From assembly GCF_003369835.1 (NCBI RefSeq), contig NZ_QPMJ01000003.1:62001-126000 (forward strand): a stretch of 64,000 nt of DNA, given 5' to 3'. This DNA comes from Halorussus rarus. Its GTDB lineage: Archaea; Halobacteriota; Halobacteria; Halobacteriales; Haladaptataceae. The position numbers and the translations under genes are program-made. The notes under the pieces were generated by a model that saw only the letters and a list, made by a program, of their open reading frames with translations, did not search any database and was not told the origin of the DNA. Positions 11,624 to 44,222 of the stretch are shown piece after piece. Positions within the stretch are counted from its first letter, which is position 1. Each line of letters begins with the position of its first letter.

Positions 11624-12610
11624 ATGGGCATCAGCATCGACGAGAAGCGGGTGTACGGCGCCAGCGAGGGGCCGACGCCGGTGTACGTCGCCGGCGAGTT
11701 CGGCGTCGCCCGCGTGGACACCTCCGACGACCTCGTGGGCGAGTTCGGCCTCGCCCGCCGGTGTACGGCCCGCGACGCCGCGGGCCGGGACGGCCGGCTC
11801 GCTGTCGCGACCGACGAGGACGTGCTGGTCGGTGCCGGGGACGACGCCGACGGCGAAAGCACTGCGGCGACGACGTTCGAGGCCCTCGACCTCGGCCCGG
11901 CCGCGGCGGTCGGCTTCGCCCCGGACGGCCGACTGGTGGTCGCCCGCGACGACGGGACGGTCGTCCGGCGAGCGACGGGCGGCGAGACGGCCGACGGGTC
12001 CGAGTCCGGCGACTGGACCGCCCTCGGCGAACTGGCCGGCGTGCGGGCAATCGACGGCGACTTCCTCGCCGCGGAGTCCGGCGTCTACCGCGCCGCGGAC
12101 GACGGCCTGACCCGCGTCGGCCTCGACGACGCCCGGGACGTGACCGCCGCCGGCGTCCCGCTGGCCGCGACCGGCGAGGGCCTGTTCCGGCTCGGCAACG
12201 GCTGGCTGAGCGAGCGCGACGGCGCGTTCCGCGCGGTCGCCGCGGCGGAACCGACCACCGTTGACGACGACCGCCCGACGCTCCCCGAAGCGCACGCCGC
12301 GGGCGAGGACGGCCTGTTCGCCCGCGAGGGCGGCGGTGAGCGAACCGGGGGTGAGGGCGAACGAAGCGAGCCCGAACGACGGCAGACGTCGTCTGCCGGT
12401 AGCTCGCGAGCCTCGGCGGACGACGCGTCCGACGGCGAGTGGCGCGCGGTCGATCTGCCGGTCTCGGGCGACGTCGCGGCGCTGGACCGTGGCGAGGCCG
12501 GCGCCTACGCGGTCACCGAAGACGGGACCTTCCTGCTGACGGTCGGCGACGGCTGGAACCACCAGATACTCGGCCTCCGCGGCGTGCGGGCGGTCGCCGC
12601 GCCGCGGTAG
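11624..12610 (+). CDS. HVO_0234-type beta-propeller protein, unknown function
   Basis: 328 residues with repeated short beta-strand units of the form VxVATDEDVLVG, GFAPDGRLVVARDDGTVV, GDFLAAESGVYRA and YAVTEDGTFLLTVGDGWNH, which read as blades of a WD/PQQ-like propeller. No signal peptide, so probably cytoplasmic. Its neighbourhood and sequence style match a haloarchaeal family I recall as HVO_0234, whose function is not known. Residues about 237-269 form a Gly/Glu/Arg/Ser-rich insertion encoded by three consecutive hairpins, unlike the rest of the protein in composition. The ATG is chosen because in-frame sequence upstream overlaps the promoter of the divergent glmM. Confidence 0.75.
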   Translation: MGISIDEKRVYGASEGPTPVYVAGEFGVARVDTSDDLVGEFGLARRCTARDAAGRDGRLAVATDEDVLVGAGDDADGESTAATTFEALDLGPAAAVGFAPDGRLVVARDDGTVVRRATGGETADGSESGDWTALGELAGVRAIDGDFLAAESGVYRAADDGLTRVGLDDARDVTAAGVPLAATGEGLFRLGNGWLSERDGAFRAVAAAEPTTVDDDRPTLPEAHAAGEDGLFAREGGGERTGGEGERSEPERRQTSSAGSSRASADDASDGEWRAVDLPVSGDVAALDRGEAGAYAVTEDGTFLLTVGDGWNHQILGLRGVRAVAAPR

Positions 12611-32636: not shown

Positions 32637-32777
32637 GGAACTTCGCTTCGCTCGTTCCGAGCCTTGCCTCACTTCGTTCGGCAAGACGCCCGGATTCTGA
32701 ACCGTCGCAAGACGGTCCGGGCGTGCGGCCTTCGGCCGTTCCGGGCTGCGACTTGCGGGGTTCGAATCCTCTATTCG

Positions 32778-32792
32778 CCCATTCTGCCGACG
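32778..32792. repeat. 15-bp inverted copy of the tRNA-Pro 3' end and flank
   Basis: Perfect reverse complement of 32834-32848, which covers the last four tRNA bases plus 11 bases of 3' flank. The two arms enclose 41 bases, so they can pair into a hairpin immediately after the tRNA. Confidence 0.8.
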
Positions 32793-32844
32793 TGGAATGA
32801 GGCTCGCGCACGCTACGCGGCGCTCGCGGACTGCGTCGGCAGAA

Positions 32845-32917
32845 TGGGACCGCCCGGATTCGAACCGGGGTTATCGGCACCCAAGGCCGAAAGGATACCA
32901 AGCTACCCCACGGTCCC
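32845..32917 (-). tRNA. tRNA-Pro (anticodon UGG)
   Basis: 73 bases, no intron, CCA not encoded. Acceptor GGGACCG pairs with CGGTCCC, with A73 as discriminator. The anticodon stem TCGGC/GCCGA encloses the loop CTTGGGT, with TGG at positions 34-36. The T-arm is CCCGGTTCGAATCCGGG. A TATA-like GCTTTACA lies about 31 bases upstream. Reads all CCN or CCA/CCG proline codons depending on modification. Confidence 0.95.
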
Positions 32918-38313: not shown

Positions 38314-39573
38314 TCAATCGGACTTCGGCGCCTCCGAGATCTCCGCGTAGGGCGTGAACCCGTCGTCGGGGGTCACCACGCCCGACCGGAGCGCGCAGGC
38401 CGCGGCGCCGAGCCCCCGCGAGGACAGCGGGCCGCGGCGCACGCACCGGAACGCGATGTTCTTGGCGGCGTTGTAGTCGTCGTGGGCCGACGCCTCGCAC
38501 TTCAGGCACTCGAACTGCCGACGCTCGAGGTCGCGGTTCTGCGGATGGGTGAACCCGCACTCCATGCACCGCTGGCTGGTGTACTCGGGGTTGACCTCTA
38601 CGACCGCGATGCCACGCTCGGCGGCGCGGTACTCCACGAACGAGAGGAGTCGCTCGAACAGCCACTCGTGGAGCGGGCCCGCCTCGGGGAGCAGTTCGCG
38701 GACCTCGCTCAGTTCGCCGAACGCGATGAGCTCGCAGTCGTACTCGTCGGCCTCGTCGACGATGCCGTTGGCCACCTCGTGGAGGCGCTGGCGGACGAAC
38801 CCGTCGAGCCGCTCGCCGGCCTGCCGGAGGGTCCGGGCCGCGCTCCGGGTGCCGGTGGCGTCGAGCGACGCTCGGACCCGCTCGAACTCCTCGCGGCGGT
38901 GGTTGAGCTCGCCCGCGTCGAAGAACCGGGCGGTGCTGGTGACCGCGAGGTTCTCGACGCCGAGGTCGACGCCGAGCACCGTCGCGCCCTCGGTCGGCGG
39001 GTCGACCGCCGGGCTGGGCGTCCGGAATCCGAGGTGGAAGGTGAACTCCCCGTCGCGGTAGTGGAGGGCGCTCTTGGCCGGCTCCCAGCTCTCGTCGTCG
39101 AGGTACTGCGACTGGTAGCCGCCGTCCGCGGGGAGGTCGAACTCGCACCGGACGCGCTCGCCGGTCGTGGTGAGGCTGACCGTCCGGTCGTCGAACACCG
39201 TCATCGTCCGGGTGTCGAACGCGACGGTCGGGGTGGTGAACTCGGGCTTGCCGCCGTCGGGCCAGCCCGACGAGCCGCCGGTCGCGTCGCTCCCGGCGAC
39301 GCCGTCCCGCTGGCGGCTGCGCTTGATGGCCTCGGCCGCGCGGTGGGTCGCCAGCACGGCGTGCTGGCTCCCGAGGTCGGTCTCCTCCCGCAGGCGGTCG
39401 TACGCGAGCTGCTGGACCTCGCTTCTCGTGTGACAGACACCCCAGGCCTCGTTGACCGCGAGCTGGCAGCCGCGCTTCCACTCCTCGACCAGCTCCCGAA
39501 GGCGTGTGGCGTCCGTCGGAGACACGGAAAGTCCGGTTACTGCCGTCCGTCTGCAATATTCGGTGTCTGCCAC
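38314..39573 (-). CDS. tnpB: TnpB RNA-guided nuclease, IS200/IS605 (IS1341-type), stand-alone
   Basis: 419 residues from a GTG. The RuvC-like catalytic acids are all present: Asp203 in GVDLGVENLA, Glu287 in IAFGELSEVR and Asp366 in HDDYNAAKNIA. The zinc finger CMECG...CLKCE is intact, so the protein may be active. Its partner tnpA is absent. A reRNA (omega RNA) is expected from the tnpB 3' end and right end; GC-rich pairing segments lie near 38411-38433. The neighbouring cupin promoter lies within about 70 bases of the stop. Confidence 0.92.
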   Translation of the reverse strand: MADTEYCRRTAVTGLSVSPTDATRLRELVEEWKRGCQLAVNEAWGVCHTRSEVQQLAYDRLREETDLGSQHAVLATHRAAEAIKRSRQRDGVAGSDATGGSSGWPDGGKPEFTTPTVAFDTRTMTVFDDRTVSLTTTGERVRCEFDLPADGGYQSQYLDDESWEPAKSALHYRDGEFTFHLGFRTPSPAVDPPTEGATVLGVDLGVENLAVTSTARFFDAGELNHRREEFERVRASLDATGTRSAARTLRQAGERLDGFVRQRLHEVANGIVDEADEYDCELIAFGELSEVRELLPEAGPLHEWLFERLLSFVEYRAAERGIAVVEVNPEYTSQRCMECGFTHPQNRDLERRQFECLKCEASAHDDYNAAKNIAFRCVRRGPLSSRGLGAAACALRSGVVTPDDGFTPYAEISEAPKSD

Positions 39574-43481: not shown

Positions 43482-44148
43482 TGCCACTCGCGAATCGGGA
43501 GAGTCGCGGAAGAAACCTGCAGGTCGTTTTCCACGGCGCCGAGAGAAACGCCGGATTTCCGATTGCGGCCCTAACAGAAACGTCCCGTCGGGGGACCGCC
43601 GGACCGCGCGGTGGTCGCGGAGTACCAAAGAGGGAGAGTGAGGAAGGGGGACGCATCGAATCGGTCGCGGAGAACCGAAAGGAGATAGCGAGACTGCACG
43701 GCGCCCCGGAACGAGAACTTTCGCGGGAGGGTTGGTGACACGACGGCGGGAGGCCAGCCCGCCACCAGAGCCTCCGGCGACGCCGGCGGCCGTCCGTTGC
43801 ACGCTCTGCGCCCGAGCCGTCGGGCGCATCTACGTCTGATGGCCGATTCGGACTTTGTTATGGGCCGTGTTCCCGGCGGCAGGTCGCGGTTGTGGCGGGT
43901 TCAGTTGCGGGCTGACCGGACGTTTACGTCGGCTGAACCCGGCGTTCCGGAGAACGATCGCCGAAACAGTTCAGATGAGTAATGAATCTAGACGGAACTC
44001 TGCCTCGACTGTAGAAGCGTCGGATGGTGGACGATCCAGATGCGAGAATCGGACCCTGCGAGGCGCGCAACGAAGCGAGCACGTCTCGCAGGGTTCGATT
44101 CTCGCACCGATGGACTGTCGGCTCCTCGCTTCGTTCGTCGCCAGAAAG
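43482..44148. other. Non-coding interval upstream of the binding-protein gene, ending in a tRNA-like fold-back
   Basis: About 670 bases. The binding-protein promoter must lie near 43500-43560, but no clear TATA box is visible. Between 43620 and 44000 I see no gene I can support; short frames read as low-complexity Arg/Ser sequence. The last 120 bases hold the tRNA-His-derived hairpin. Confidence 0.5.
44041..44106. repeat. Inverted pair of tRNA-His 3' ends (22-bp arms)
   Basis: Arms 44041-44062 and 44085-44106 are reverse complements with one mismatch. The right arm contains the T-arm and part of the acceptor of the neighbouring tRNA-His; 16 bases (TGCGAGAATCGAACCC) are identical to the tRNA at 44156-44171. 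The 22-base loop holds a CAACGAAGCGAG motif also seen elsewhere in the window. Confidence 0.8.
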
Positions 44149-44222
44149 GTCCAGGTGCGAGAATCGAACCCGCGTCTCAGCCTCCACAAGGCTGAAGGAT
44201 GGTCCACTACCCCAACCCGGAC
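44149..44222 (-). tRNA. tRNA-His (anticodon GUG), G-1 encoded
   Basis: 74 bases including the extra 5' G-1 that faces C73. Acceptor TCCGGGT pairs with ACCTGGA. Anticodon stem CAGCC/GGCTG encloses TTGTGGA with GTG at 34-36. T-arm GCGGGTTCGATTCTCGC. No intron; CCA not encoded. A TATA-like TATTTTAATT lies about 31 bases upstream, in an AT-rich gap. Confidence 0.95.

Follow-up and report, generated by a model that had tools for sequence, protein, structure and literature searches.

A hairpin unit behind tRNA-His of Halorussus rarus and its counterparts at the 3' ends of haloarchaeal tRNA genes

Why should the 3' end of a tRNA gene be repeated, once inverted and once directly, a short distance behind the gene itself? 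This question is raised by the tRNA-His (GTG) locus in a 64,000-nt stretch of Halorussus rarus DNA (contig NZ_QPMJ01000003.1, positions 62,001 to 126,000), the whole of which is referred to here as the window. The gene lies on the minus strand at 44149-44222, with G-1 at 44222 and C73 at 44149 as read from the sequence; ARAGORN placed it at 44148-44221 and RF00005 scored it at 46 bits. A first-pass annotation had described a near-perfect inverted repeat of the tRNA 3' end behind this gene, and had proposed that it was an integration scar, a structured trailer that steers tRNA 3' processing, or a decoy for tRNA enzymes.

The inverted repeat is present where it had been described. The two 22-nt arms with one mismatch and a 22-nt loop (44041-44062 and 44085-44106) were found again, but the stem runs further inwards: a repeat search delimited arms of 28 nt, 89% complementary, around a 10-nt loop (44041-44068 and 44079-44106). 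The first arm is separated by 40 nt from the 3' terminus of the tRNA, the distance originally estimated. An identity of 16 bases to the tRNA had been claimed, whereas the inverted copy of the tRNA 3' end extends over 18 nt without a mismatch (44091-44108, 100% complementary). The final bases of the tRNA also recur as a 22-nt direct copy with 2 mismatches (44035-44056, 91%). As had been predicted for a read-through transcript, the segment folded as one long hairpin, with folding z-scores of -6.7 (tRNA strand) and -6.0 (opposite strand), and none of 200 shuffles was equally stable on either. We also aligned the last 30 nt of each tRNA locally against the 400 nt downstream of it, with 1804 comparisons with tRNAs of other isotypes as the null. 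The tRNA-His 3' end scored 17.5 (direct) and 20 (inverted) against its own downstream region; in the null, the 99th percentile was 13 and the highest scores were 18 (direct) and 15 (inverted). By the folding and alignment nulls, the repeat thus exceeds chance.

Behind tRNA-His on the minus strand, four parts follow one another: a 33-nt trailer, x, with a short hairpin (CTTTCTGGCGACGAACGAAGCGAGGAGCCGACA..., 44116-44148, read from the sequence), which resembles elements behind other tRNAs; the inverted copy of the tRNA 3' end (44091-44115), in which the 18 of 18 matching positions are followed by a 2-nt insertion and then GTCC; a 34-nt core hairpin of the class termed type II below (44057-44090); and the direct copy (44035-44056). 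The interval from the tRNA to the direct copy is about 90 nt, and the locus holds a single unit. The second tRNA of the window, tRNA-Pro (TGG; ARAGORN, 32845-32917, minus strand), is followed by a unit of the same kind, in which an inverted T-arm and a type II core precede a directly repeated tRNA-Pro 3' end (32691-32770, minus strand), with a trailer hairpin at about 32771-32844. This unit, which lies 75 nt downstream of tRNA-Pro, matched a covariance model of the type II units (R1) with 56.5 bits at G000:C3:94691-94770, and it was one of the training rows of that model. The window also contains a TnpB-type gene (Cas12f1-like_TNB, OrfB_IS605; 38314-39573, minus strand), with no apparent connection to the tRNA units.

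The first description implied a feature unique to tRNA-His, and this did not hold. In the same genome, 14 of 44 tRNAs have copies of their own 3' ends downstream with scores above the 99th percentile of the null (13), where about 0.4 would be expected, and upstream of the tRNAs the sole comparably high score came from a tandem Asp gene. Loci were sampled in two further genomes as the best 30 of 44 matches (G049, from a second family) and the best 30 of 49 matches (Haloferax denitrificans), each with tRNA-His added. The threshold was exceeded by 13 of the 31 tRNAs examined in G049 and by 13 of the 32 examined in Haloferax denitrificans, at least three of the latter (Val-gac, Asp-gtc and Gly-gcc) being genuine tandem genes. 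These results show that about one third of the tRNAs in the three genomes examined have units, with arms that fit their own tRNA. In a phylum sample, two of 33 lay above the threshold, both of them in genomes marked as belonging to the order of the window.

The units share a common order, in which the tRNA is followed by x (a trailer, usually a hairpin), A' (an inverted copy), a core hairpin and A (a direct copy), and they typically measure 100-170 bp. A' is an inverted copy of the T-arm that matches most closely over the T-loop and inner T-stem, and A runs from the T-loop through the discriminator base (about 22 nt). Among 105 copies, the mean identity of A to its tRNA was 0.896, 44 copies being perfect, and none was followed by CCA, so the copies derive from the gene and not from the mature tRNA. 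Units were extracted by requiring an inverted arm matching at least 8 of 11 positions within 130 nt, and the resulting 90 rows include duplicates and a few doubtful entries, such as one from L058 and the second of those for Gly-tcc in G049. Cores were typed on 95 rows with a core of at most 75 nt, or 82 after near-identical rows had been removed. In these 82 non-redundant units, the core types are common to unrelated tRNAs and genera: 18 were type I (CAC GCGAGAC...GTCTCGC AGTCGG), 31 type II (NNNAGTCGC...CGTCTNNN), 26 type III (CAGGGAG...CGACCG) and 7 other. In the first unit of L150, behind tRNA-Phe of G049, the trailer includes a near copy of the anticodon-arm region of tRNA-Phe; some copies therefore reach well upstream of the T-loop.

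When the R1 model was run against the 4.37-Mb genome of the window, 11 places were found at E<1e-4, each with a tRNA 41-170 nt upstream of it; five of these places had served as training rows. Across a 119-genome phylum sample, R1 matched 20 of the 22 genomes of the order (the window's own and 19 of 21 others) and none of the 97 genomes outside it, of which 18 were listed as such and 79 were placed outside by the sort order of the table. For the 29 best matches that had loci outside the window's genome, ARAGORN placed a same-strand tRNA 32-437 nt upstream of 26. The exceptions are L294, which by reading adjoins an apparent intron-bearing tRNA, and L308 and L311 (match at 1501), which by eye are orphans with tRNA-Phe-like and tRNA-Ala-like 3' ends and no adjoining tRNA; in these two, elements have possibly integrated between a tRNA and its tail. 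A corresponding model of the type III units (R2) gave 23 matches in four further genomes, all of them behind a tRNA at a distance of 35-301 nt, with 21 finishing in a copy of that tRNA's 3' end; no training row stood under the G handles of these genomes, although some rows came from named contigs of unassigned handle.

At tRNA-His itself, 27 of the 58 loci examined have the unit by our criteria, in a biased sample in that 22 of the 58 were obtained with a pattern that requires it, and the window and L009 (identical to L072) have it besides. The hairpin is thus not absent from all relatives; such an absence, along with no transcription across the segment, would in the annotation's terms have made it a random relic. 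Carriers among the 22 stretches belong to Halorubrum, Halostella, Haloarchaeobius, Natronococcus, Haloferax, Haloprofundus, Natronorubrum and Halorussus. Haloarchaeobius showed three tandem matches to the tRNA-His unit pattern, and tandem repeats of trailer plus unit occur in the relatives L019, L051 and L052. Rfam 15 returned only tRNA at gathering score for the window stretch and 10 further loci, and nothing for 6 more loci. The literature searched, which mostly lay outside subscription journals, yielded no account of the hairpin units.

Is the hairpin maintained as RNA? Matches between the arms follow from copying and are no proof of selection, and we therefore examined the core stems, which are not copied. 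Alignments used 12 of 18 type I rows, 28 of 31 type II rows (the window's flipped unit, described below, was left out) and 20 of 26 type III rows, the others being dropped by core length or class. Paired cells made up 92.5%, 94.4% and 94.0% of the stems of types I, II and III, with covariation scores of 0.455, 0.468 and 0.371 against shuffle means of 0.233, 0.123 and 0.166, respectively. For each type, none of 500 shuffles attained the score; these counts are not probabilities, since the shuffles leave relatedness in, yet slid structures, which keep the relatedness, scored far lower. One pair of the type II core was seen as C-G, U-A, G-C and A-U, and the internal mismatches of the core hairpins are conserved.

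The two strands also differed. With 10 tRNA-Tyr rows of the window's genus excluded from the strand and G.U figures, the hairpin in the tRNA sense was stabler than its complement in 53 of 72 units and less stable in 18 (p 2e-6). The sense bias was -3.6 kcal/mol, as compared to -1.25 in dinucleotide shuffles (p 1e-6), which thus are themselves somewhat biased. The energy bias was marginal when counted per tRNA species (p 0.044). G.U pairs outnumbered A.C in the arms by 17 to 6 (p 0.035), a difference that was not significant for distinct events (15 versus 7, p 0.13). Selection on the RNA of the tRNA strand thus receives moderate support. As a structure, then, the proposed trailer is borne out by covariation, sense-strand bias and conserved mismatches, while its part in 3' processing stays a proposal; for a decoy, we found no evidence.

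We also considered whether A' guards the folding of the tRNA against the copied acceptor strand, and rejected this idea: in 73 precursors, scrambling A' led to no significant change in pairing of the tRNA with itself (p 0.64) or with the copy (p 0.09). In these thermodynamic folds, which are not co-transcriptional and are left uninterpreted here, the 5' acceptor strand of the tRNA paired with the copy at 0.67 and with its own 3' strand at 0.17.

The unit at tRNA-His in the window differs from its counterparts in orientation. It matched R1 with 54.5 bits on the plus strand and 35 bits on the minus strand, that of the tRNA, whereas the other strong units of this genome match on the tRNA strand. 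By pattern, the type II core is reversed only in this one row and forward in 14 rows. The arm that matches the tRNA perfectly is the upstream one. Because the reversed core and the perfect upstream arm both fit such a history, the hairpin may have been flipped by recombination between its arms, after which the downstream arm would have decayed.

Gain and loss of units can be followed at the tRNA-Tyr locus of 18 genomes of the window's genus, 13 of which are occupied by eye (12 by score) and 5 empty. G003 carries a 160-bp insert and G012 is empty, and the flank after the copy in the former is the flank after the tRNA in the latter (local score 162, control 37.5); G008/G001, G015/G012 and others agree. 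Whole units are therefore gained or lost precisely at the 22-nt tRNA end. The inserts are 106-270 bp long and, together with the space of about 90 nt between tRNA and copy in the window, contain no integrase or element body. The ends of units vary, with several unrelated x sequences, and tRNA-Tyr of G016 is followed by two different units in tandem. Consecutive units behind Arg-CCT and Ser-TGA of G049 have the same x and A' and different cores, which indicates core exchange. The copies in Haloprofundus L052 have a CCCGGAC end where the host tRNA has CCTGGAC, a mismatch that suggests transfer between lineages. Any function of the units is dispensable, because many tRNAs and whole loci (e.g. the 5 of 18 at tRNA-Tyr) are without them.

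In five genomes (L067-L071 in G005, G011, G017, G016 and G008), tRNA-His is directly followed by other sequences in the form of large insertions, and small reading frames in some of them look zinc-finger-like or HNH-like by eye. The 19-20 kb examined for each of the five contained no second copy of the tRNA-His end, the stretch of G005 being one without the tRNA.

The closest counterpart in a known system is found in E. coli, where the 178-bp repeats of tyrT/tyrV with RttR (rtT) have the same order of parts in tandem: tRNA, trailer, inverted 3'-end segment, structured core and direct copy. Repeats of the tyrT type were described in the 1970s-80s; termination occurs inside them, and rtT RNA affects the stringent response. 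RefSeq places rttR ("small RNA RttR") behind tyrV in E. coli, and the tRNA-Tyr 3' end recurs there as three direct copies at 178-nt spacing, each preceded by an inverted segment (12/14) that pairs with the copy at 10 of 10 positions in the predicted fold. Several differences were also evident. The E. coli repeats occupy one locus, whereas the haloarchaeal units occur at many tRNAs per genome; the E. coli copy includes an encoded CCA, which the haloarchaeal copies lack; the Tpr ORF is annotated within the E. coli repeat; and a single E. coli unit folds better in antisense (-54.9 versus -50.3). The RtT family gave no match at the window locus up to E 10 and none at gathering score in 10 further loci. 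Because Rfam returned no match other than tRNA at gathering score, the relation to rttR is one of architectural likeness and not of family membership. The units may also resemble integron attC sites, with an inverted and a direct site around a hairpin and a GTT-type core.

Taken together, these observations make it likely that the hairpin behind tRNA-His is one of a set of haloarchaeal "tRNA-tail cassettes", that is, recombining non-coding units with a selected RNA hairpin that would form a putative RNA tail. Such a unit would be transcribed by read-through from the tRNA promoter. The established enzyme tRNase Z would free the mature tRNA, and the part behind it would be left as a structured tail, comparable to E. 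coli RttR as annotated. Through recombination between the copies of the tRNA end, units would multiply, exchange cores or be lost, with the tRNA always left intact, and the putative function of the tail would be useful but dispensable. A wider proposal, which we put forward tentatively and regard as somewhat doubtful, is that short taxon-wide cassettes, each encoding a structured RNA, insert between a tRNA and its flank, adopt the 3' end of that tRNA, move and are reshuffled among loci through recombination at the universal T-arm and are transcribed as tails, E. coli tyrT/rttR being of the same design.

The main rival to the tRNA-tail cassette is that the units are remnants of integrated tRNA-targeting elements that have lost their bodies, with x and A'-core as the two ends. 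The direct repeat that bounds the tRNA-Tyr insertions resembles the product of a tyrosine-recombinase attachment site, and the archaeal attachment duplications share with the units a tRNA 3'-end direct repeat, a whole tRNA and precise presence or absence; to this extent the "integration scar" of the annotation was apt. Integration with 3'-end repeats is documented in haloarchaea: in Haloquadratum, a 52-kb island at tRNA-His has the 3' end of that tRNA repeated over 43 nt at its terminus (PMC3119063), and Haloferax gibbonsii shows tRNA-targeted integration and partial tRNAs directly adjacent to full ones (PMC7921747). The latter are probably direct copies of tRNA-tail units, although the passages available from that source mention neither an inverted copy or core hairpin nor any families or structure. 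In addition, the orphan units L308 and L311 adjoin DNA that looks foreign by eye and have no tRNA. Attachment duplications nevertheless differ from the units, which are typically 100-170 bp without an integrase or element body, have an inverted copy and a covarying core, and are found many to a genome. The same three core types at many tRNAs, and core covariation with conserved mismatches, are not expected of debris. A viral origin was rejected, as the tRNA-His end, core I and core II each had 0 matches in viral contigs as exact patterns, which distant versions could escape. Overall, we consider the remnant explanation unlikely.

Still less probable, in our judgement, is that the units are selfish palindromes of the REP/MITE type that prefer tRNA 3' ends and take these ends as their arms, the structure being maintained through a transposase or through repair templated on the hairpin and not through an RNA function. 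REP and BIME palindromes are likewise short, intergenic, modular and dispersed, rttR is listed as REP-containing in PMC12306157, and the core swaps between units with identical x and A' (G049 Arg-CCT and Ser-TGA) would suit such elements. Core II, moreover, does occur with other arms in the own genome: R1 matches of lower score, at about 25-32 bits and for the most part covering core positions 11-61, place it in a larger dispersed repeat off tRNAs. By contrast, the full-length strong matches are tRNA-linked, and strong outer-arm matches lie almost only behind tRNAs; the tRNA-specific outer arms and the location at tRNA 3' ends set the units apart from REP and BIME. Palindrome repair explains neither the preference for one strand nor the conserved internal mismatches, and no transposase was identified. 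A chance palindrome or a one-off template switch at tRNA-His, to which the decayed and flipped state of the window copy might point, has next to no credit left and is refuted by the recurrence at 14 of 44 tRNAs of the genome and by core types common to several genomes.

What looked like a minor hairpin has thus led to a family of structured elements that, in the haloarchaea examined, accompany about one tRNA gene in three; the non-haloarchaeal genomes sampled lack it, and no Rfam model of it was found. With its many loci, the family offers a tractable system, in Haloferax, for probing the role of the E. coli tyrT repeats and RttR, and makes approachable how a sequence acquires arms that fit whichever tRNA it joins. 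If transcribed, the units would constitute a new class of archaeal small RNAs linked to tRNA expression, and if the wider proposal is true, tRNA tails may be a general, overlooked type of prokaryotic non-coding RNA locus.

Several further observations were made on the repeats and motifs encountered. Eight weaker core II matches of the own genome (L273-L275, L277-L280 and L282; G000 positions C3:344991, C2:1036006, C1:349724, C2:367671, C1:695215, C2:386290, C2:1157193 and C1:381442) lie within a multi-hairpin dispersed repeat off tRNAs, which mostly terminates in GGCGGGGGCTTTC or similar; the identified neighbour of the repeat at L274 is a DUF7351/DUF7347 regulator. A loop motif, GARCGNAGYGAG, recurs in x and core hairpins (e.g. 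window 12358-12370 and 44125-44137) and is common in the haloarchaeal non-coding DNA examined; it was not found in the literature searched. An R-Y pair at the tip of this hairpin alternates between A-U and G-C, and the tip may include tandem sheared G.A pairs and a GNA triloop. Many haloarchaeal megaplasmids (including L226-L230) carry a different dispersed repeat (GTCGTGGCTGCGCGCGCAGCGAAGCGAGCACGGAGCGG...), which has an exact 22-mer in common with core II. A plasmid reservoir of the units was rejected, because the plasmid matches to this 22-mer belonged to the different repeat in the five regions read. L117, on the Haloarcula halophila plasmid NZ_CP119561.1, holds a real core II: at about 1930-2065 the unit splits a tRNA-Cys-like gene between the 5' T-stem and the T-loop, in a 20-tRNA array next to a TROVE-domain gene.
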